Virus record (IMG/VR): IMGVR_UViG_3300030103_001111
Location: 1-35,734 of that record
Strand: one strand, 5' to 3'
DNA: 35,734 nt
DNA from: a virus
Position numbers and translations under genes: made by a program. Shown piece by piece: positions 6,993-26,995 of the stretch. The notes under the pieces were generated by a model. The model was given only the letters and a program-made list of their open reading frames with translations. It made no database searches and was not told where the DNA came from. The first letter of the stretch is position 1; each line of letters starts with the position of its first letter.

Positions 6993-7588
6993 CAGTAATA
7001 ACTACAAGTAACGGTTACAAATATAGACCTTTAGAAGAATCAGATGAAACTTTTATGATGGATTGTTTGAAGGATTATCCTATTGGCAGTAATACTATAT
7101 ATCAAAGAAGAAATGAGTTTGCCAATATGCTTTATGTAACGGAAGGATTTGATGAAACTAAAGTCAAAAACAAAACTTCACCACAATCTATAACGATGGT
7201 CACAGAGAAAGCAGACGGATCAGCTATAGGATTTCAACATATAGAAATTGTTAATCTTATAGTTGAATTGCGTATGGGCGCAACACATCCTTCACATAGA
7301 AGGCAAGGACACTCTACAGCAAGACTGATGCTACTTGGAGAGTTTGCATATAACCATCTTGGTTGCACAGGTACTCAACTTGAAATTGTAAATACAGATC
7401 AGGTTTCTAAAGTAGCTGATACTTGGAGAAGTGATATAAGTGCTGACGAAACACAAAGAGATACAGAGAACAAATTTGGTGATGCACAGACTTACACCCT
7501 AAACAAAATACAAATAACTGCAGCAGAACATGAAACTCATAGGGCAGGACACAGCACTTGGGGTTCAGTAACTTACACAATAACCTAA
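6989..7588 (+). CDS. GNAT-family acetyltransferase-like protein
   Basis: 199 residues starting at TTG, supported by a strong Shine-Dalgarno (GGAGGAGG) seven bases upstream and by the TTGA overlap with the tail-tip stop. The central stretch VELRMGATHPSHRRQGHSTA resembles GNAT motif A, with the R-R-x-G-x-(S/A) acetyl-CoA pyrophosphate loop on strand 4/helix 3. The N-terminal part (YRPLEESDETFMMDCLKDYP) also fits a GNAT start. The substrate is unknown; its place right after the fibre gene suggests modification of a virion or host-surface component, which is inference. An inactive GNAT-fold structural protein is the alternative. Confidence 0.6.
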   Translation: MTVITTSNGYKYRPLEESDETFMMDCLKDYPIGSNTIYQRRNEFANMLYVTEGFDETKVKNKTSPQSITMVTEKADGSAIGFQHIEIVNLIVELRMGATHPSHRRQGHSTARLMLLGEFAYNHLGCTGTQLEIVNTDQVSKVADTWRSDISADETQRDTENKFGDAQTYTLNKIQITAAEHETHRAGHSTWGSVTYTIT

Positions 7589-7938
7589 TGCAAGAAGTTG
7601 TAACTCTAATTAATGAAGTAGGATTTCCTATTGCCGCCGCAGGCGGTCTTGGTTTATTTATATGGAAACTAATAAATAGGATTATTGACGGAATGGAAAC
7701 AAAACTAGATACGCTAGATGATAAGCAAGCAGAACTGATATCCAATATGGAAGAAAGGCTCGGAACAAAATTGGACTCACAGCATGGAATACTGGTAGCA
7801 TTGATAGACAGAGTACGCAGTCTGGACAATGAGATCATTCGTCAGGACACACTTATTAAAACAATTTTAGGTGTGCCACAGTTGATAGACAGCAACAAGA
7901 TTGCAAAGGCAGATAGAGATGATCAAAGAAAAGATTGA
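7588..7938 (+). CDS. Small membrane-anchored coiled-coil protein (holin-like candidate)
   Basis: 116 residues from the ATG overlapping the previous stop (TAATG). One hydrophobic segment at about residues 8-27 (INEVGFPIAAAGGLGLFIWK) is followed by a long charged helix likely to form a coiled coil (KLDTLDDKQAELISNMEER onward). This layout recalls XhlA-like or other small phage lysis/membrane proteins, and the gene opens the lysis region. No family-specific motif is visible, so holin function is only a suggestion. Its TGA overlaps the CsgF-like start (TGATG), so the two are translationally linked. Confidence 0.5.
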   Translation: MQEVVTLINEVGFPIAAAGGLGLFIWKLINRIIDGMETKLDTLDDKQAELISNMEERLGTKLDSQHGILVALIDRVRSLDNEIIRQDTLIKTILGVPQLIDSNKIAKADRDDQRKD

Positions 7939-8405
7939 TGAACCTACAAGATAGTGTATTTGCAATTATAGGAATAATTTTGGTTCTTATTGTGGTTGTA
8001 GTACAACAACTGCAAGCAGATGAAATGGTGCATGACTTCAAATCACCATCATTTAACGGACAAGGTACGTCAAGTCATTATCTTACTATTGAGAATCAAG
8101 AGTTCAATAGAGCAGAATCCATAAGAAAGGAAATAGAAGCACTGCGAGAAGAAATAGAAAGGGAAGAAAACAACACAGTAGAAGCTAGATTCATGAGGAA
8201 TCTTACCAGTCGTATCTATGCGAACCTTGCAAGGCAAATAGAAGCATCATTATTTGGCGAGCAAATAAGTAAATCTGGTGAGATGGAATTAGATGGCAAC
8301 ACTATTGAATATGAAATTACAGACGAAGAGGTTAGAGTAACTATCACAGATGAGGATGGCAATGTTACAGAAGTCATTGTGCCTATTGGCGGTTTTACTT
8401 TCTAG
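7938..8405 (+). CDS. csgF: CsgF-like curli assembly protein
   Basis: 155 residues. A hydrophobic N-terminal segment (about 6-22) resembles an export signal or anchor, although its n-region lacks Lys/Arg. Directly after it, MVHDFKSPSFNGQGTSSHYL matches the CsgF N-terminal motif F-(R/K)-x-P-x-F-x-G that, in E. coli, inserts into the CsgG channel. The helical middle (about 60-115) and the C-terminal beta section (IEYEITDEEVRVTITDEDGN, ending VIVPIGGF) parallel E. coli CsgF (IVDIANRDG...NVTDRKTGQ...QVSGL). In curli systems CsgF couples secretion to fibre nucleation at the cell surface. It overlaps the csgG-like gene by 44 bp. The CsgF assignment is strengthened by CsgG being its neighbour. Confidence 0.82.
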   Translation: MNLQDSVFAIIGIILVLIVVVVQQLQADEMVHDFKSPSFNGQGTSSHYLTIENQEFNRAESIRKEIEALREEIEREENNTVEARFMRNLTSRIYANLARQIEASLFGEQISKSGEMELDGNTIEYEITDEEVRVTITDEDGNVTEVIVPIGGFTF

Positions 8406-9162
8406 TTGTACTCTAATGATTGACCCTCTACAAAACAATCTACCACCTGTAGAGTATGTAGAAAAGGCAAGTACAGTTGTTCTACACACAGAGTTAGCAG
8501 ATGTTGATGAGCCTGAAAGAAAACCTGTTATTGCTGTATACGCAAATGATTTTAAAGACCAAACAGGGCAGAGACGATCTAACTCCAAATATGCCACGTT
8601 TAGCACGGCAGTTACACAAGCACCACATGCATACCTTATAAGGGCGCTTAAACACGCAGGAGCGAACAAAAATGGTTTCTTTGAGGTAGTAGAAAGGGTA
8701 TCACTAGATGCGGTTACAAAAGAGCGACAATTGATACGATCCACAAGAGAAACATTTGAAGAAGAACAAAGACTCATGCCACTGAAGTTTGGCGACATGA
8801 TTATGACTGGTGGTGTCCTATCATATGAAGCTAACATAGAAAGCGGAGGGGTGGGGGCAAGGTATTTAGGTATCGGCATGTCACGCAAAATAAGACGTGA
8901 CCAGATAACCGTAAGCCTTAGAACAGTTTCAGTTTCTACAGGTCGTGTGCTTATAGAAACATTAGTTACAAAAACAGTTTTCTCAGCATCACTTGATAAT
9001 GATGTATTTAGATTTATATCTGATGAGACAGAACTGGTAGAATTGGAAGGTGGTACTGTAAAGAACGAGCCAATGAGCATAGCTTTGCAGATAGCAATAG
9101 AAACGGCAGTGCTTCAAACAATAGAAGAAGGAGTGAAACATAATTTTTGGAGGTACAAATGA
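8362..9162 (+). CDS. csgG: CsgG-like outer-membrane secretion pore lipoprotein
   Basis: 266 residues from ATG 8362, chosen over ATG 8350/8356 because GAGG lies six bases upstream and the product then begins like E. coli CsgG: short n-region, hydrophobic core, lipobox L-S-S-C. Conserved CsgG signatures follow: VYANDFKDQTGQ, ATFSTAVTQAP, VTKERQLIRSTRETFEEE (cf. NERKIIRAAQENG), the nearly identical SYEANIESGGVGARYLGIG, DQITVSLRTVSVSTGRVL, FRFI, NEP and AIETAVLQTIEEG. CsgG forms a nonameric outer-membrane channel that exports curlin. In the constriction loop the Phe equivalent to F56 is kept, while Y51 and N55 align with Ser and Thr. It overlaps CsgF at the start and the curlin-like gene by four bases at the end (ATGA). 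Confidence 0.93.
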   Translation: MLQKSLCLLAVLLSSCTLMIDPLQNNLPPVEYVEKASTVVLHTELADVDEPERKPVIAVYANDFKDQTGQRRSNSKYATFSTAVTQAPHAYLIRALKHAGANKNGFFEVVERVSLDAVTKERQLIRSTRETFEEEQRLMPLKFGDMIMTGGVLSYEANIESGGVGARYLGIGMSRKIRRDQITVSLRTVSVSTGRVLIETLVTKTVFSASLDNDVFRFISDETELVELEGGTVKNEPMSIALQIAIETAVLQTIEEGVKHNFWRYK

Positions 9163-9872
9163 AGAAAATTTTACTCATGTTTCTGTTAGCTATGCCATTG
9201 ATGGGTGCTGACAATGAAATATTCGTTGACCAGAGCAGTGGTTCATCAAACTCTAATATGGATTTAGAGCAACTAGGCTCAGGTAACATAATTGGAGGTA
9301 TAGATGCTGAAGCAGGAGCAATGACTGCTCTTGACTTAGATGGCACAGCTATGACTCTTGACATAAATCAGATTGGAGACAGTAACAAATTCTTAGGTGA
9401 CATCACCGCAGATTCATATACTGGCTTCTTTGAATTTGACGGTAATAGCAACACCTTTAACATGAACACAGATAAGACAAACACCTTTGGTGCTGACTCA
9501 TCTAACGTGAATGTTGACGTCACTGGCAATAGTAATACCTTTACTTTAAATCAAGCCACAACTGCTTTAGCCGCTACACTTGATTTAGATTGGATTATAA
9601 ATGGTTCAAGTAACAGCATTACAGCATCCATAGATGTAGATGGTGCTACTAACTACATGGATATAGACGGTTCTGATAATACTGTCACATATGATGGAGA
9701 TGGTTACGCAGGAGGTTATTTCTGGCTTGATCATACGGGCAGTGATAGAACCTTTAATATACAACAAAAATCAACACAAGATAATGACTGGCTCAAGATT
9801 ATTAGTACTGGTTCTACTACTTCAAGCGTTTGTGTTATCCAAAACGATCAAGGCACAAGCACAGGATGTTGA
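9159..9872 (+). CDS. Curlin-like secreted repeat protein
   Basis: 237 residues. Start ATG 9159 has GGAGG five bases upstream and gives a clean Sec signal peptide (MKKILLMFLLAMPLMGA, cleavage before D18). The mature protein starts with a Ser/Asn/Gly-rich stretch and then carries G-x-x-N units with N at about 43, 76, 98, 126, 152 and 174, spaced 22-33 residues. Two of them are exact curlin motifs Q-x-G-x-x-N (QLGSGN, QIGDSN); later ones are GNSNTF, GSSNSI and GSDNTV. E. coli CsgA repeats are about 22 residues with the same motif. It has two Cys near the C-terminus, including the last residue. Probably the substrate of the neighbouring CsgG-like pore; amyloid formation is inferred. Confidence 0.75.
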   Translation: MKKILLMFLLAMPLMGADNEIFVDQSSGSSNSNMDLEQLGSGNIIGGIDAEAGAMTALDLDGTAMTLDINQIGDSNKFLGDITADSYTGFFEFDGNSNTFNMNTDKTNTFGADSSNVNVDVTGNSNTFTLNQATTALAATLDLDWIINGSSNSITASIDVDGATNYMDIDGSDNTVTYDGDGYAGGYFWLDHTGSDRTFNIQQKSTQDNDWLKIISTGSTTSSVCVIQNDQGTSTGC

Positions 9873-10905
9873 TATAGGAAGCATAAGCGAACTTAAAGGC
9901 AACGCACAAGTAGTACGAGACAAACCATACGGAGCAGAAATTGACTTTGGAATACTTAGTTATGACAAAGTAGAAACTGCCAATGGTCGTATGGGTATAA
10001 CATTTATAGATGAGACGCAGATAAGACTTACAGAAAATTCAAAGGTTTTGATTGACGAGTTTATATTTGATCCAAACCCTGACAAATCCAAGATGGCACT
10101 TACCTTTGCAAAAGGTACTGCAAGATTTGTTACAGGTAAATTAAATAAGGTAAGGAAAAAAAATATAAAGATACGCACGAGCAGTGCCACTATCGGAATT
10201 AGAGGGACAGACTTTACGATAACTGTAGATGAGTTAGGCAGGTCATTGGTCATTTTGCTACCTGACATAGATGGTATGTCCAGTGGTGAAATATACGTAG
10301 AAACGGCGGCAGGTATTGTAATACTTAATAAACCATATCAAGCCACAACTACAAGCACATATAACTCCGCACCAACTAAGCCAGTCACTTTAGATATAAC
10401 ACTTGATCTGATAGACAATATGCTGATAGTAAATCCACCTAAAGAAAGTGATAACATCAATGCTGAAGAAGCACAACAAGCAAGTTCTGACTATTTAGAT
10501 TTCTCTGATCTAGATATAGATTTTTTAGCTGAAGATTTTTTAGACAACTCTGAAGAATTAACTTTTACAGAATTGGATATCAACTATCTAGACGTAAACT
10601 TTCTTGAGGACTTATTAAACATCATAGATGCGCTTGCCGTATCAGAAGAAGAGGATAAGTTAAATCAACTCGCTACAGGTATAAGAATAACAGGCACAGA
10701 GATAGGGCAAGATAAAGACACACAAATTACAACCATAATTAGTGGTCAGATAGTTAGTATCAGAAGGGCGGTAGGAGATACATTCAGATTAGATTTAGAT
10801 GGTTCTAGTTCATACACTTTGCTTCTTACACAAAACGGTGTAGAAAATACAGTTAAAGTAAATGGCGGTACAGACAACACAATACAGGTAAAGCAAGGCA
10901 ACTAA
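9784..10905 (+). CDS. Secreted FecR-domain protein with curlin-like C-terminal motifs
   Basis: 373 residues from ATG 9784, chosen because it yields a signal peptide (LLVLVLLLQAFVLS core, A-Q-A cleavage near residue 26); the gene overlaps the curlin-like gene by 89 bp. Residues about 28-200 form a FecR domain: GSISELKGNAQVVR, YDKVETANGRMGITFIDETQ, MALTFAKGTARFVTGKL and IRTSSATIGIRGTDFTITVD. The middle is acidic with DYLDFSDLDIDFLAEDFLD-type Leu/Asp repeats (about 235-285). The last 30 residues contain QNGVEN, GGTDNTI and QGN, resembling curlin repeat units. There is no membrane segment after the signal and no sigma-factor partner, so the classical FecR signalling role is doubtful. It may be exported or help nucleate the curlin-like protein (inference). 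Confidence 0.78.
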   Translation: MTGSRLLVLVLLLQAFVLSKTIKAQAQDVDIGSISELKGNAQVVRDKPYGAEIDFGILSYDKVETANGRMGITFIDETQIRLTENSKVLIDEFIFDPNPDKSKMALTFAKGTARFVTGKLNKVRKKNIKIRTSSATIGIRGTDFTITVDELGRSLVILLPDIDGMSSGEIYVETAAGIVILNKPYQATTTSTYNSAPTKPVTLDITLDLIDNMLIVNPPKESDNINAEEAQQASSDYLDFSDLDIDFLAEDFLDNSEELTFTELDINYLDVNFLEDLLNIIDALAVSEEEDKLNQLATGIRITGTEIGQDKDTQITTIISGQIVSIRRAVGDTFRLDLDGSSSYTLLLTQNGVENTVKVNGGTDNTIQVKQGN

Positions 10906-10949
10906 TGTATGTTTGCTCAAAAGTTCTAATACTGTTATTGTATTTATAA
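10905..10949 (+). CDS. Possible 14-residue leader peptide before the i-spanin
   Basis: ATG 10905 overlaps the FecR-gene stop (TAATG), and the frame ends at TAA 10947-10949, two bases before the ATG of the spanin gene, which has no clear ribosome site of its own. Translation of this hydrophobic mini-ORF could deliver ribosomes to the spanin start. It may equally be chance. Confidence 0.25.
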   Translation: MYVCSKVLILLLYL

Positions 10950-10951
10950 AC

Positions 10952-11350
10952 ATGAATTTATCAGTAGTATTAGGAGGATTGTTATTACTAACAATCGCAA
11001 GCACGGCTTGGTATATTGACTATCAAGCTGACCAAATAAGTACGCTCAAAGGTAATCAGATAGTTTTAGAAACACAGATAGAAGAACAAAATGCTTCTAT
11101 AGAACGATATCTACAACAACAGAAAGCACAACAAGAACAACTTAACATACTGGAAGAAGAAAGAAGAAAGGCTATGCAAGATGTAAACAAGCTGAGAAAA
11201 ACTTTTGCAAACTTAGACCTAGACCAAGAAGCGCTTGCAGACCCAATAGACCTACAGAACAGAATAAATAAAGGATCTCTTAGAGTTTTAACAACTTTAG
11301 AAAAACTTACCAACCCAAAGCAGTTTGATGAAAAATCTAATTCTAATTAG
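10952..11350 (+). CDS. i-spanin-like inner-membrane coiled-coil protein (Rz-like)
   Basis: 132 residues: short N-terminus, one transmembrane segment (about 3-21, VVLGGLLLLTIASTAWYI), then a long charged helix rich in Glu/Gln/Lys (about 30-95) predicted to be coiled coil and periplasmic. This is the layout of Rz-type i-spanins, which with an o-spanin fuse inner and outer membranes at the end of lysis. The next gene, a small lipoprotein, begins inside its 3' end in another frame, the usual Rz/Rz1 arrangement. A TTG start at 10913 in the same frame would add 13 residues; ATG 10952 places the membrane segment correctly at the N-terminus. Confidence 0.72.
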   Translation: MNLSVVLGGLLLLTIASTAWYIDYQADQISTLKGNQIVLETQIEEQNASIERYLQQQKAQQEQLNILEEERRKAMQDVNKLRKTFANLDLDQEALADPIDLQNRINKGSLRVLTTLEKLTNPKQFDEKSNSN

Positions 11351-11702
11351 TCTAGCAATATTTCTAGCTAGCTGCTCTATGCTACAGACCGCAAAGCCTG
11401 TGCAAGTAAAGACAATAGCTGAGCGCACACCTATATACCATCCACCATTACCATACCCAATGAGTCTTACAGAAGTAGATTGGGAGGTCATGACACCAAT
11501 AACAATGCAGGAATACTTAGAAAATTTAGCGGCAGGTGATGCGCCAGAACGTGCTTTCTATACGCTTTCAAGTCAAGAATACCAAAACTTATCTATGACT
11601 ATGAGCGAGGTGACACGGTATACAAGAGATATATTGTCAATAATTAAATACTACAGAGAACTTGATCAGGCAGAAGCTAATCAAGTAGAATTAAACAAGT
11701 AA
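11328..11702 (+). CDS. o-spanin-like outer-membrane lipoprotein (Rz1-like)
   Basis: 124 residues from ATG 11328, starting inside the i-spanin gene. The signal peptide MKNLILISLAIFLASC has lipobox L-A-S-C with lipidated Cys16. Then comes a Pro-rich stretch (TPIYHPPLPYPMSLTEVDWE) as in Rz1-like proteins, followed by VMTPITMQEYLENL, FYTLSSQEYQNLSMTMSEVT and a C-terminal helix, a pattern I recognise from a widespread family of phage lipoproteins next to Rz-like genes. Expected partner: the membrane protein encoded at 10952-11350. Assignment as o-spanin is by architecture and position. Confidence 0.75.
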   Translation: MKNLILISLAIFLASCSMLQTAKPVQVKTIAERTPIYHPPLPYPMSLTEVDWEVMTPITMQEYLENLAAGDAPERAFYTLSSQEYQNLSMTMSEVTRYTRDILSIIKYYRELDQAEANQVELNK

Positions 11703-11721: not shown

Positions 11722-11913
11722 ATGGAGATTATGGAAATTATAAATTGGATTACTTGGATAGTGACAGCAGCTTCTGCAATAGCAGCATCTACTCCAACGC
11801 CAAAAGATGATGCAATCATAGGAAAGGCTTATAAGTTTATAGATGCCCTTGCTCTTAATATTTTAAAAGCAAAGGACAAAGCACCTAGCACACCTAACGC
11901 AGAATCCAAATAA
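11722..11913 (+). CDS. Small membrane protein, holin-like candidate
   Basis: 63 residues with AGGAGA five bases before the ATG. The N-terminal hydrophobic segment (INWITWIVTAASAIAAS, about 6-22) is followed by TPTPKDDAIIGKAYKFIDAL and a Lys/Pro-rich tail. Similar short proteins (one membrane segment plus a TPTPKDD-IGKAYK motif) occur in lysis regions of many phages. The endolysin downstream has no export signal and therefore needs a holin; this gene and the one at 7588 are the two candidates. Stop and next start overlap (TAATG). Confidence 0.5.
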   Translation: MEIMEIINWITWIVTAASAIAASTPTPKDDAIIGKAYKFIDALALNILKAKDKAPSTPNAESK

Positions 11914-12308
11914 TGTCAGAATCGCCTGATGCCTTTGTCTACAAAGCATCCCTAGAAAGGGTGGTTGATGGCGATACTGTTGACGTTACACTTGACTTGG
12001 GATTTGACGTAAAGTTACACAAGCAACGTGTCAGGCTCGCAGGCATTGACACACCAGAGAGCAGAACAAGAAACCTTGCTGAAAAGGCTTTAGGTCTCAA
12101 AGCTAAAGATAGATTAATAGAACTATGCACAGGCACTTTCAAGATCAAGTCACTAGGTAAAGGTAAATATGGAAGGATTTTGGGCATCCCTTATACAGAA
12201 GATGGCGAAGATGTTTGTCAAAAACTCATCAATGAAGGACATGCGGTTGAGTATTGGGGAGGAACAAAAAAAGCCAAAGTCAGAGATGACGGCACATGGG
12301 GAGAATAA
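11913..12308 (+). CDS. Staphylococcal-nuclease-like (SNase) endonuclease
   Basis: 131 residues covering essentially a single SNase (thermonuclease) domain. Active-site motifs are present in order: RVVDGDTVDV (metal-binding Asp), QRVRLAGIDTPE (equivalents of Arg35, Asp40/Thr41 and Glu43 of S. aureus nuclease) and KGKYGRILG (Arg87 equivalent), then LINEGHAVEYWGG. It lacks a signal peptide, so the product should act in the cytoplasm unless released at lysis. Position between a holin-like gene and the endolysin suggests late expression, perhaps for host DNA/RNA degradation. Catalytic residues look intact. Confidence 0.9.
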   Translation: MSESPDAFVYKASLERVVDGDTVDVTLDLGFDVKLHKQRVRLAGIDTPESRTRNLAEKALGLKAKDRLIELCTGTFKIKSLGKGKYGRILGIPYTEDGEDVCQKLINEGHAVEYWGGTKKAKVRDDGTWGE

Positions 12309-12309
12309 T

Positions 12310-12771
12310 ATGCACATATCAGAAGAAGGCTTATCGCTCATAAAAAAATTTGAAGGTTGTCCAACAAAAGGTGGTCTTGCAGTTCCGTACATATGCCCTG
12401 CAGGTGTTCTAACAATAGGCTATGGTCATACAAGAACAGTCAAAGAGCATGACAAATGGACACTAGATCATGCAAGTTACATTCTTAGAGAAGAAATAGA
12501 AGATGAGTATGAGCCATACGTTGAAAAGTTAGTAAAAGTACCTCTAGAACAAAATCAGTTTGATGCACTTGTTGCTTGGGTTTTTAATTTAGGACCAACA
12601 AACTTTAAAGAAAGCACTTTGCTTAAAGTTCTCAATGAAGGCAAATATAATGAAGTGCCTGCACAAATGAGAAGATGGAACAAAGCTAACGGTGAAGTTC
12701 TTGATGGACTGGTTAGGCGCAGAGAAGCAGAGGCCAAGATGTTTGCAGGGGAGGAATGGTTCGCAGTCTAA
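12310..12771 (+). CDS. Endolysin, GH24 lysozyme (E-C-T type)
   Basis: 153 residues from ATG 12310, immediately after the SNase stop. Residues 5-41 (EEGLSLIKKFEG, then YICPAGVLTIGYGHT) are the GH24 phage-lysozyme active-site region: Glu15, Thr35, and Cys29 where T4 lysozyme has Asp. An E-C-T arrangement is known from P1-Lyz-like enzymes. The C-terminal part (NQFDALVAWVFNLGP, MRRWNKANGEVLDGLVRRRE) is typical of the family. It has no signal peptide or SAR segment, so release depends on a holin. It hydrolyses peptidoglycan glycan strands for host lysis. Confidence 0.93.
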   Translation: MHISEEGLSLIKKFEGCPTKGGLAVPYICPAGVLTIGYGHTRTVKEHDKWTLDHASYILREEIEDEYEPYVEKLVKVPLEQNQFDALVAWVFNLGPTNFKESTLLKVLNEGKYNEVPAQMRRWNKANGEVLDGLVRRREAEAKMFAGEEWFAV

Positions 12772-22439: not shown

Positions 22440-23128
22440 TGAAAGATGTAAAAGATTTATATGATGCTGCTGCATCACGATATGACAATATGTATCAAGA
22501 AGACAAAACACTTATAAAAGCAGAAAACATGTTTTTATATGAAAACCTACCAACAGTTGGAGTGAAGTCCATTTTAGACTGTGGTGCAGGTACTGGTCTG
22601 TTTGCTGATCTTTTTGAAAAAAAATTGTGGCATACAAAATACAAGGGTGTAGATATAAGCGAAAAGATGATAGAGGTTGCTAAAAACAAACATGTAACCC
22701 TTGATTTTGAGGTAGCAGACTTTATGGAATATGAGGATCATAATACATATGACCTTGTAGTGAGTTTGTTTGCAATTCCTGACTATTGTGGAGAAAAAGG
22801 AATTATAAAGATGCGCAGTCATTTAAAAGAAAATGGTTTGATGTACCTTACATTCATAAATAAAAACGGTGGTTACAACGCTCTATGTCATGAAGAGATG
22901 AATTCTGATGTAGAAACTACTAAATTTTCCTATCAAGAAATAAAAGACATTTTAAAAAAAATGGAATATGATTGGTCGTACATTTTGGGTTTTTCTAGTT
23001 TGGAGTATAATGATGCAAAAGGATCGTTTAAATTTAAAGACTCAGTTGAGGCTATATATACAGATATGGAATATAGAAAACATAATCTTAAAAACTGTAA
23101 GTATTATCTTTTAATCTTACAAGCATGA
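22439..23128 (+). CDS. SAM-dependent methyltransferase (class I)
   Basis: 229 residues. Motif I SILDCGAGTGLFADL (about 45-58), then YKGVDISEKMIEVAKN with the ribose-binding Asp, DFEVADFMEYED and YDLVVSLFAIPDY. Class I Rossmann methyltransferase of the small-molecule/protein type; it lacks the N-P-P-Y or P-C motif of typical DNA base methyltransferases, so the substrate is open. Stop-start overlaps on both sides (TAATG, ATGA) couple it to the primase-helicase and to the PAPS-reductase-like gene. Confidence 0.82.
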   Translation: MKDVKDLYDAAASRYDNMYQEDKTLIKAENMFLYENLPTVGVKSILDCGAGTGLFADLFEKKLWHTKYKGVDISEKMIEVAKNKHVTLDFEVADFMEYEDHNTYDLVVSLFAIPDYCGEKGIIKMRSHLKENGLMYLTFINKNGGYNALCHEEMNSDVETTKFSYQEIKDILKKMEYDWSYILGFSSLEYNDAKGSFKFKDSVEAIYTDMEYRKHNLKNCKYYLLILQA

Positions 23129-24261
23129 AACTTAATCTTAATATAAGTGTATTTGATGCAGCTTTAAATAGACTGCAAGAGGTTTATGAGCAAGGACACA
23201 CTGTAGTTATTTCTCAAAGCGGCGGTAAAGATTCTACTATCTGCATGGAGTTAGCAATAATGGCTGCAGACGCAGCAGGCAAATTACCAATCAATGTAGT
23301 ACATCGTGATGAAGAAATACTTTTTCCAAATACATATGAGTACTTGGACAGAGTTGCAGCAAGACCTGAAGTCAATATGCACCACGTCTACGCAGGGCAA
23401 CCTGTAGTGAATGTATTTAATCGCAGCTTGCCGTATTGGTGGATATTTGATGAATATATAGACCCATCTGATTGGGTAAGACAACCGCCAGATTACGCTT
23501 ATAAAATAGAAGAAAAAAATATCAACGCATTGGTTACACCAGAAAGATTTCATGTAGATGAAGGCAAAGACCTTTATGCCTGCATAGGCTTACGTGTGCA
23601 AGAAAGTCCGAACCGAAGAATGGGTTTATTTTCTAGTAAAGGTCATATAACCAAGCCAAATGACAGAGGCGTAAAGTATGTTAGACCGATATATGACTGG
23701 ACAGATGGTGATGTATGGAAAGCTATATCTGATTTTAAATGGGATTACAATCACGCTTATGATGTTATGGTCAAGCACGGCAGATCAAAAAATAAACTGC
23801 GTATAGCACCTTTGACAATGACAACTGCAGGCATACCAGATTTACAGTTAGCACAAAAGGCATGGCCTCGTTGGTTTGACAAAGTGTGTCATAGACTTGA
23901 CGGCATACGGACAGCAGCACAGTTTGGAAAAATATCTTGTCAACCGATCAGAAAGTCTGGCGAAACATGGGAAGAATGTTTTAAAAGGGAGTGCATAGAA
24001 GATGCACCTGATTGGATTGCAGAAAGAGCAGTAAAAATAATGGGTGTTGAACTCAAAAAGTTTGACAAGCAAAATGGTTCTGACATGGATTTTCCACAAG
24101 TAAATTCTATAAGAGCAAATCCAAATGGCTCTTGGAAAAAATTGGCTATGAATATGTATAACGGAGATCCCTTCTCTCTAAAACAAGGCTCGCTGCCGTA
24201 CATGGAGCCAGAATATTTTAGGGAAGGTGCAGGTACATGGGGCGGCAAGCCTACTTTCTGA
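23125..24261 (+). CDS. PAPS-reductase-like PP-loop ATP-pyrophosphatase family protein
   Basis: 378 residues. VISQSGGKDSTICMELAIMA (SGGKDS at 32-37) is the PP-loop. VVHRDEEILFPNTYEYLDRV and LYACIGLRVQESPNRRMGLF follow the phage/DndC-like PAPS-reductase superfamily, and PIYDWTDGDVWKAI is typical. The catalytic E-C-G-x-H tail of true PAPS reductases is absent, so sulfate reduction is unlikely. The PP-loop suggests adenylation chemistry, for instance thiolation or other base or tRNA modification. Occurs with a small conserved protein and a ParB-like protein in overlapping order, a recurrent phage association whose function is unresolved as far as I know. Confidence 0.85.
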   Translation: MKLNLNISVFDAALNRLQEVYEQGHTVVISQSGGKDSTICMELAIMAADAAGKLPINVVHRDEEILFPNTYEYLDRVAARPEVNMHHVYAGQPVVNVFNRSLPYWWIFDEYIDPSDWVRQPPDYAYKIEEKNINALVTPERFHVDEGKDLYACIGLRVQESPNRRMGLFSSKGHITKPNDRGVKYVRPIYDWTDGDVWKAISDFKWDYNHAYDVMVKHGRSKNKLRIAPLTMTTAGIPDLQLAQKAWPRWFDKVCHRLDGIRTAAQFGKISCQPIRKSGETWEECFKRECIEDAPDWIAERAVKIMGVELKKFDKQNGSDMDFPQVNSIRANPNGSWKKLAMNMYNGDPFSLKQGSLPYMEPEYFREGAGTWGGKPTF

Positions 24262-25960: not shown

Positions 25961-26995
25961 TTAATTAAGTTCTATTTCACGCTCTGCAAAGTAACTTTTG
26001 ACTGTTTGATCAACACCATCTAGCCATCCGTTATCTTGTTCTGTATTAGGGTTTCCTGCTTGTCTTTGTAGTACCCATATTTTTTGTAAATCATTATCTC
26101 TTGTATTCCTGCAAAGGTAGTCATAAGCAGCATCCCTATCTAATGAGCTTTCTCTAGCACCTGTGTAAAGATCATTCAGTTCATCATTTCTAAGTATGGT
26201 CACAAAAGAACCATACCTGCCGCCTTCTTTCTCAACCTTCCAACCGTTATATCTTCTGCTATAAAAAACATCATATCCATTGTTCTCTAAGATGTTTCTT
26301 ATCATGTTATAAGGTCTGTTTTTGTTTAATGTCACAGTTCTTGTACCTGCAAGCTGAACACTTCTCTCAACAAAGGTCTGCAAAAAACTTAACCAATTTA
26401 CAATTTTAGTAAAATTCAAAGTACCACTGTGGTGTCTGAACTCTATAGTTCCGTATGTAGTTAGCTTGTTAAGATTTACTTTGTAGTATTTACCTGCAGC
26501 ATGTGCAAGTCTGTTTTTGGTGGGTTGTCTCTTGATTCTGTTTTTGTTAGGCACAACACTGTCACACCAATTAGCATTACCTCTTCTGCTTCTAGGCATT
26601 ACAAGGTCAATTTGTGCTTCATAGTCTGCGTATCTTTCATAAACAGTTTGTATCTGTCTTACTGTAAGATCATCAACACCTAAATGTATGTGTAACCCAC
26701 ATCTTCTAGTAACGGTTATACCCTCTATAGTCTCTAGGGCATCACACACCTTTTTAAGTTCAGCTACACCTTCAACACCTTTTAGAATTGGTGATACTAT
26801 CTCACCACAAGTAGTATAGTTAGGAAGACTTCCATCTGTAACAATTTTCCAATAGTCAGTCACCCTATGCGTATATCCCTCAAAGTGGCAAGCAACAACT
26901 TGGTTAAGTTTGTGTGCTACCGCTTGTATATCTGCACCTTCAAACTCCATTTCTATTCCAAATGTTCTGTCTGTTATGGTTGGTAAGTTATTCAT
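25961..26995 (-). CDS. Amidoligase (COOH-NH2 ligase) family protein
   Basis: 344 residues. TFGIEMEFEGADIQAVAHKL (E15, E17: the E-x-E metal-binding start of glutamine-synthetase-like ligases), ITVTRRCGLHIHLGVDDLTV (H-x-H near residue 103), NKLTTYGTIEFRHHSGTLNF and TKIVNWLSFLQTFVERSV are the signature motifs of the putative amidoligase family. These are predicted to form amide bonds using ATP. Expressed from promoter P3 with a perfect palindromic operator, with GGAG before the start, and followed by the GGCT-like gene. Full length; key acidic and His residues present. The substrate cannot be read from sequence. Confidence 0.88.
   Translation of the reverse strand: MNNLPTITDRTFGIEMEFEGADIQAVAHKLNQVVACHFEGYTHRVTDYWKIVTDGSLPNYTTCGEIVSPILKGVEGVAELKKVCDALETIEGITVTRRCGLHIHLGVDDLTVRQIQTVYERYADYEAQIDLVMPRSRRGNANWCDSVVPNKNRIKRQPTKNRLAHAAGKYYKVNLNKLTTYGTIEFRHHSGTLNFTKIVNWLSFLQTFVERSVQLAGTRTVTLNKNRPYNMIRNILENNGYDVFYSRRYNGWKVEKEGGRYGSFVTILRNDELNDLYTGARESSLDRDAAYDYLCRNTRDNDLQKIWVLQRQAGNPNTEQDNGWLDGVDQTVKSYFAEREIELN

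Follow-up and report, generated by a model that had tools for sequence, protein, structure and literature searches.

A putative curli-type export module beside the lysis genes

IMG/VR virus record IMGVR_UViG_3300030103_001111 (35,734 bases, analysed over its whole length and hereafter called the window) is described as an uncultivated, siphovirus-like marine phage. Its tail genes are of the siphovirus kind, encoding a tape measure, a distal tail protein and a J-like fibre, and it also has genes for terminase, portal and major head proteins. At the protein level its closest phages are distant: Microcystis phage Mae-JY09 for the terminase (49%) and Roseobacter phage CRP-406 for the tail fibre (36%). 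The record may be an incomplete genome. We analysed a run of four overlapping plus-strand genes that encode relatives of the curli export components CsgF and CsgG, a curlin-like protein and a FecR-domain protein. In the 5' to 3' direction, the genes of this region are those for the tail fibre, an acetyltransferase-like protein, a transmembrane plus coiled-coil (TM-coil) protein, CsgF, CsgG, the curlin-like protein, FecR, spanin-like proteins, a small protein, a staphylococcal-nuclease-like (SNase-like) protein and lysozyme (Table 1). The five genes from TM-coil to fecR overlap successively by 1, 44, 4 and 89 bases, and a gap of 7 bases separates fecR from the Rz open reading frame (ORF).

An earlier note made from the letters of this DNA had proposed the identities of the four genes and their location beside the spanins, and both were borne out. 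The CsgF, CsgG and FecR matches all lie above the Pfam cut-offs, and a profile of 11 phage CsgGs, in which the lipobox cysteine is invariant, matched the solved E. coli-type CsgG at 3.3e-64. The solved CsgF aligns weakly (E 0.23), with its N-terminal, CsgG-binding part alone, and residues H33, F35, P38, F40 and G42 are invariant in 10 phage CsgFs. The third gene product, the likely cargo, was assigned as curlin-like through a structure model and not through a curlin profile: the AlphaFold2 model is all-beta (predicted local distance difference test score, pLDDT, 75; predicted template modelling score, pTM, 0.73), and three of its four top matches in BFVD are phage proteins named 'Curlin associated', the fourth being unnamed (TMq 0.66-0.71; two matches at E<=0.001, best 1.1e-4). 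A search of the window for the gate/adaptor CsgE was negative, as the note had stated. Relative to five close relatives, all module genes are under purifying selection, the ratio of nonsynonymous to synonymous polymorphism (pN/pS) being 0.04-0.07 for csgG and 0.09-0.12 for the curlin-like gene; such selection on the cargo is more than a bare pore would require.

The samples of viral relatives were best-80 lists of matches, and relatives inside a sample are not independent. Of 158 loci fetched with CsgG, 94 extend 2.6 kb or more downstream and all of these have fecR on that side, and 127 extend 1.6 kb or more upstream and all of these have csgF and the TM-coil gene there; this co-occurrence in related phages is not due to chance. 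Given the family matches and this fixed co-occurrence, we rejected a chance resemblance of the four genes. We conclude that, by sequence, the window encodes four proteins that are conserved together: a predicted CsgG pore, its CsgF partner, a curlin-like beta protein predicted to be secreted, and FecR bearing a curlin-like end.

Table 1. Features of the module and the adjoining lysis region in the window
Feature	Position	Strand	Evidence
TM-coil (transmembrane plus coiled-coil) protein	7588..7938	+	phrog_18771 3.6e-17; weak holin match phrog_4898 8.4e-5
csgF	7938..8405	+	PF10614 3.7e-17; start overlaps TM-coil stop (TGATG)
csgG, lipoprotein pore	8362..9162	+	PF03783 2.4e-44
Secreted curlin-like beta protein, likely cargo	9159..9872	+	AlphaFold2 all-beta model; BFVD matches
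fecR: signal peptide, FecR domain, acidic linker, curlin-like C-terminal end	9784..10905 (9784, likely start)	+	PF04773 4.5e-12; alignment of 14
FecR-domain part, residues 31-185, switching with cyclase gene	9874..10338	+	pair comparisons, trees
Curlin-like C-terminal unit, residues 344-373	10813..10902	+	24.5 bits against bacterial curlin-repeat matrix
Site of CHASE2 adenylate cyclase gene in cyclase-bearing relatives, vacant in window	10906..10912	+	comparison with L062; no PF00211 in window
i-spanin, Rz-like (ORF from 10913)	10952..11350	+	phrog_739 1.1e-8
o-spanin, Rz1-like lipoprotein	11325..11702	+	phrog_812 1.1e-16
Small protein with hydrophobic stretch, lysis region	11722..11913	+	phrog_9685 5.3e-12, family of unknown function
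Staphylococcal-nuclease-like protein	11913..12308	+	PF00565 4.1e-13
Phage lysozyme	12169..12771	+	PF00959 1.8e-42

The gene set itself is not new, and the earlier note's view of the arrangement as under-described did not stand. For podovirus and myovirus pelagiphages, PMC9599517 gives the order HK - CsgF - CsgG - CsgA/B - FecR - (CsgA/B) - AC (HK, histidine kinase; AC, adenylate cyclase), with the second CsgA/B and the cyclase often present and CsgE missing, as it is from alphaproteobacterial modules too. csgF and csgG have also been described in pelagimyophages (PMC7029224) and in Melnitz (PMC9004378), and between them these two papers discuss a number of the same ideas on function, including sibling capture, uptake and lysis. 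With this type VIII secretion system (T8SS)/curli module of HTVC008M and Melnitz the window shares the order TM-coil ('HK') - csgF - csgG - curlin - fecR, at 46% and 40%, respectively, for CsgG and 39% and 36% for FecR. Unlike it, the window is siphovirus-like, has neither a cyclase nor a second curlin gene, and combines a strong curlin-like FecR end with adjacent lysis genes. The window shares CsgG and CsgF homologues with E. coli curli (CsgA-G), the conserved part of CsgF being the N-terminus that binds CsgG, but differs in the undetected CsgE, the divergent cargo and the added FecR protein; a FecR match within about 8 kb was found at none of the five alphaproteobacterial csg loci examined. 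In the open-licence PubMed Central literature we found no paper combining curli/CsgG with a marine siphovirus, none combining 'FecR domain' with curlin, and PMC9599517 alone for FecR, curli, adenylate cyclase and phage; the curlin-like FecR end, the co-switching of FecR domain and CHASE2 cyclase, and csg-less relatives that keep the TM-coil gene were not found in print.

The FecR protein and its curlin-like end

The N-terminus of the FecR protein is signal peptide-like, as judged by eye in an alignment of 14 sequences. The C-terminus was scored against a matrix of 90 curlin repeats from five alphaproteobacterial chromosomal csg loci, which is independent of phages (alphaproteobacterial CsgG was found at 8 places in 7 of 385 genomes, and the neighbourhoods of the 5 strongest were examined). 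The last 45 residues of the window protein reached 24.5 bits, a score attained by none of 2,000 shuffles of this tail (maximum 24.4; 99th percentile, q99, 16.3). Of the 50 distinct tails in the FecR-selected sample, 47 exceeded the shuffled 95th percentile (q95) and 41 exceeded q99, and the window-like part of the CsgG-selected sample gave 43 and 40 of 53 tails, respectively. Among bacterial FecR proteins (75 from a best-80 list), 0/73 tails reached the phage q99 and 3 exceeded their own. An AlphaFold2 model of the FecR protein made from 32 sequences was unusable (pLDDT 43) and was left out of the fold search.

Downstream sequence of 2.5 kb or more was available for 87 distinct modules. Among these, fecR was followed by a second curlin gene in 0 of 59 with a strong FecR tail versus 16 of 28 with a weak one, and the window has none. 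This distribution suggests that the FecR tail may replace the second curlin gene, although the pattern is mostly one split between two phage groups and is therefore suggestive rather than proof of replacement.

Coupling of the FecR domain to a CHASE2 cyclase gene

In cyclase-bearing (AC+) relatives, a CHASE2 adenylate cyclase gene directly follows fecR, as in L062, where a 587-aa protein with CHASE2 (1.1e-27) and cyclase (7.9e-18) matches is encoded between fecR and Rz. No PF00211 cyclase was found in the window, which therefore represents the cyclase-less (AC-) state. Close pairs of modules show that the FecR domain and the cyclase flip jointly while the rest of the module stays near-identical. 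Between the window (AC-) and L065 (AC+), identity is 99% for CsgG, 94% for curlin and 91% for the FecR tail but 62% for the FecR domain; the corresponding values are 99%, 98%, 97% and 58% for L009 and L266, and 99%, 94%, 90% and 67% for L056 and L301. On an 80-row CsgG tree the cyclase state changes 17 times, and in 13 independent pairs the domain and the cyclase switched together in 10, oppositely in none, with the domain unchanged in 3 (p 0.002).

Trees of the separate parts agree with the pairs. In 163 modules (34 cyclase-less), the cyclase changes counted on these trees numbered 3 for the FecR domain, 12 for the linker+tail, 24 for CsgG and 25 for curlin, and an improved FecR-domain tree required 2 changes versus 26-34 in 50 label shuffles; this set excludes duplicates, rows that have short genes or no match to curlin, L002, L003, L085-L087 and the HTVC008M-like L185-L264. 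The first 80 loci had been fetched with FecR peptides, of which two lie within the FecR domain, and 26 of the 34 cyclase-less rows came from these loci; we therefore repeated the tree test on loci fetched without FecR. From 294 loci fetched with CsgG or curlin, we removed 143, namely 24 without one of the genes, 36 truncated or short, 36 with less than 1.5 kb downstream and 47 duplicates, and kept 151, of which 24 are cyclase-less. Gain or loss of the cyclase then took 1 change on the FecR-domain tree, 9 on linker+tail, 18 on CsgG and 20 on curlin, and identity to the window domain was 0.69-0.98 for all 24 cyclase-less modules and at most 0.68 for all AC+ modules.

An identity cut-off of 0.80 for a 'window-type' FecR domain was tried and found too strict, since 4 of 21 cyclase-less rows of the 80-row sample and 5 of 6 of another fell below it (0.69-0.78). 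In the latter sample, as in the 151 modules, every cyclase-less domain nevertheless exceeds the top AC+ value (0.68). The comparison of domain trees with those of other genes was used in place of the cut-off; L081, an AC+ module of the FecR-selected sample, reaches 0.77. The coupling has exceptions: the cyclase differs but the domain is the same in L253/L255 and L074/L081, and L084/L316 are cyclase-less with a domain merely 69-70% like that of the window. L253 and L255 are an HTVC008M-like pair with identical FecR domains, and their difference possibly reflects a recent loss of the cyclase. The window domain type is strongly conserved, and the median FecR-domain pN/pS was 0.066 in cyclase-less modules (102 pairs) and 0.085 in AC+ modules (556 pairs), the pairs not being independent; by this measure the cyclase-less domain is still constrained, with no decay.

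The association could instead reflect physical linkage only, with recombination swapping fecR and the cyclase gene as one block. The linker+tail tree speaks for this, as it needs 9-12 changes versus 18-25 for CsgG or curlin, so some events moved the whole fecR gene. Linkage alone could thus explain part of the coupling, but not the three close pairs above, in which the tail, lying between the domain and the cyclase gene, stays while both flip. Moreover, the two states are separated by 9 of 155 FecR-domain positions (80, 88, 110, 133 and 138 among them) versus 0 of 188 linker+tail positions. We consider linkage as the whole explanation less likely than not.

Among 61 bacterial FecR loci that have no csgG, 9 also place FecR beside a CHASE2 cyclase, and most Campylobacterota CHASE2 cyclases cluster with a FecR-domain protein, probably in a shared pathway (PMC9239204). 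AC+ relatives such as L062 match this cluster in having a FecR domain with a CHASE2 cyclase downstream; unlike the phage modules, the bacterial FecR/CHASE2 loci examined have no csg genes and no curlin-like FecR end, and the window has no cyclase. These sequences are most simply explained if phages brought together bacterial curli export and the bacterial FecR/CHASE2 pair by way of a FecR protein with a curlin-like end. We tentatively suggest, as an idea with less than even odds, that FecR is a two-ended sensor: the curlin-like end would feel exported curlin or the pore in the periplasm, the FecR domain would signal to the CHASE2 cyclase, and cyclic AMP would inform the host cytoplasm, modules toggling between states by a joint domain swap and cyclase gain or loss. 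FecR resembles a swappable link between the export machine and a signalling enzyme that the window virus is without. Phages would, if such partners are borne out, be a source of a ready-made FecR/CHASE2 signalling pair.

Possible roles of the module

Curli-type export genes of marine phages have been published yet not explained, in part because the FecR and 'histidine kinase' genes were taken as iron and kinase regulators; the curlin-like FecR end and the co-switching with CHASE2 provide concrete candidate partners. The earlier note, right on gene identities and position, had missed both of these, as well as the membership of the TM-coil gene in the set. Our preferred reading, to which we give a probability of roughly 0.55, is that the window carries a minimal version of the type VIII (curli) export module, borne by a phage and lacking the cyclase, which would be lysis-region cargo that coats the infected cell late in infection, with FecR tying curlin to signalling or anchoring; the fibre and its benefit are parts that we infer. 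Late in infection, CsgG and CsgF would export the curlin-like protein, which would assemble into an amyloid-like coat on the surface of the dying cell, and this coat might hold cells, debris and virions together or block other phages. The FecR protein would remain in the periplasm or at the outer membrane, where its curlin-like end might join or nucleate the cargo in the manner of CsgB or CsgE. Its FecR domain would contact a partner, and in relatives with an adenylate cyclase this would most likely be the CHASE2 sensor of that enzyme in the periplasm. The window would have a different FecR-domain type that works without a cyclase. Late expression, which the note had also considered probable, is judged from position alone: promoter-like sites in the window are at shuffle level (21 versus 19.7 +/- 4.7) and terminator-like sites near it (5 versus 3.6 +/- 1.4).

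Several observations weigh against a curlin coat with FecR as its link. The curlin-like protein has no Pfam curlin match, the curlin repeat PF07012 is absent from the window at E<=1, and the fold search with the model gave no PDB match below E 0.05. Secretion, fibre and expression of the module are predictions. HTVC008M-like FecR ends exceeded q95 in 0 of 33 cases, the terminal beta-x-beta-x-Q motif being kept in 32 of the 33, and constraint on the FecR end is weak (median pN/pS 0.43-0.53), less than that on the FecR domain. A folded FecR domain could hardly traverse the CsgG pore, which leaves a role of FecR as an extracellular nucleator uncertain. Finally, Melnitz-infected cells showed no clumping (Buchholz et al., PMC9004378).

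The position of the module bears on a second explanation, proposed for Melnitz (PMC9004378), in which the CsgG/CsgF outer-membrane pore permeabilises or depolarises the envelope as an aid to lysis and the other genes are passengers. The module sits between the TM-coil gene and the spanin and lysozyme genes, and of 87 distinct modules, 36 have lysis genes no more than 3 kb away on the 3' side of fecR. In a sample fetched with the TM-coil gene itself (63 loci with at least 1.8 kb downstream), csgF and csgG follow that gene in 58, and in the other five (L347, L361, L365, L367 and L406, of which L365 and L367 are alike) it runs directly into lysis-region genes and lysozyme without a csg block. The same five relatives, however, manage without the module, and the adjoining spanins already deal with the outer membrane. 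The curlin and FecR genes are, moreover, conserved like lysis genes and never missing, and in HTVC008M and Melnitz the module is remote from recognisable lysis genes. We consider a lysis aid unlikely, and favour an export module that behaves as cargo in these lysis regions, as the csg-less arrangement indicates. Csg-less relatives are natural controls for the effect of the module on lysis, release and host aggregation.

The TM-coil gene shares phrog_18771 with HTVC008M and Melnitz and is very probably the gene named 'HK' in PMC9599517. It may be the phage's holin, given the weak phrog_4898 match and its presence in lysis regions without csg; counter to this, the same gene lies upstream of csgF in HTVC008M and Melnitz. 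Because csg-less lysis regions keep the TM-coil gene, it may have originated there and then travelled with csg to HTVC008M-like phages, which may oppose the myovirus-to-podovirus direction proposed in PMC9599517. In the csg-less regions the TM-coil gene precedes a gene for a membrane protein of 159-160 aa (phrog_1544 in L347), with lysozyme also present, and a SNase-like gene is carried, located before the TM-coil gene in L361 and L367. L085 and L087 have two TM-coil copies upstream of csgF, in tandem or close together, and each Melnitz record has the gene in two places.

Two further proposals have, in our view, very little chance. An ungated CsgG might admit small nutrients to the infected cell (PMC7029224, PMC9599517), in keeping with the undetected CsgE gate in the window, but an uptake pore leaves the conserved secreted cargo and the FecR protein unexplained. 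The other casts FecR and the upstream gene as controllers of the module, the first as an iron-dependent regulator and the second as a histidine kinase. In its favour are the PF04773 domain and the publication of the proposal (PMC9599517), but the FecR domain is the sole match, Pfam scans found no N-terminal anti-sigma domain (the N-terminus is signal peptide-like instead), the window (possibly an incomplete record) has no match to the extracytoplasmic function (ECF)-type sigma region 4 (PF08281), the curlin-like end is absent from the bacterial FecR proteins compared, and in the window, HTVC008M and Melnitz alike the upstream gene has no Pfam/NCBIfam kinase family. FecR as a classic iron regulator and the TM-coil gene as a kinase were rejected on these grounds; with FecI-FecR-FecA iron citrate signalling the window shares the FecR domain alone.

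The phage-type module or FecR is also carried by five contigs of metagenome-assembled genomes (MAGs) that are assigned to Maricaulis, Planctomycetaceae, Pirellulales, Rhodobacteraceae and Woeseiaceae (L084-L088; G021 contigs), and one MAG bin contains four CsgG contigs; these are probably phage contigs binned with bacteria. OR851715.1, named 'Salmonella phage S.Kent 1-2-1', spans 1,499 bases, matches CsgG at 37.6% identity and looks like a bacterial csgG fragment deposited under a phage name. Elsewhere in the window lie a phosphoadenosine-phosphosulfate-reductase-like gene (23125-24261) and, on the minus strand, an amidoligase-like gene (25961-26995).

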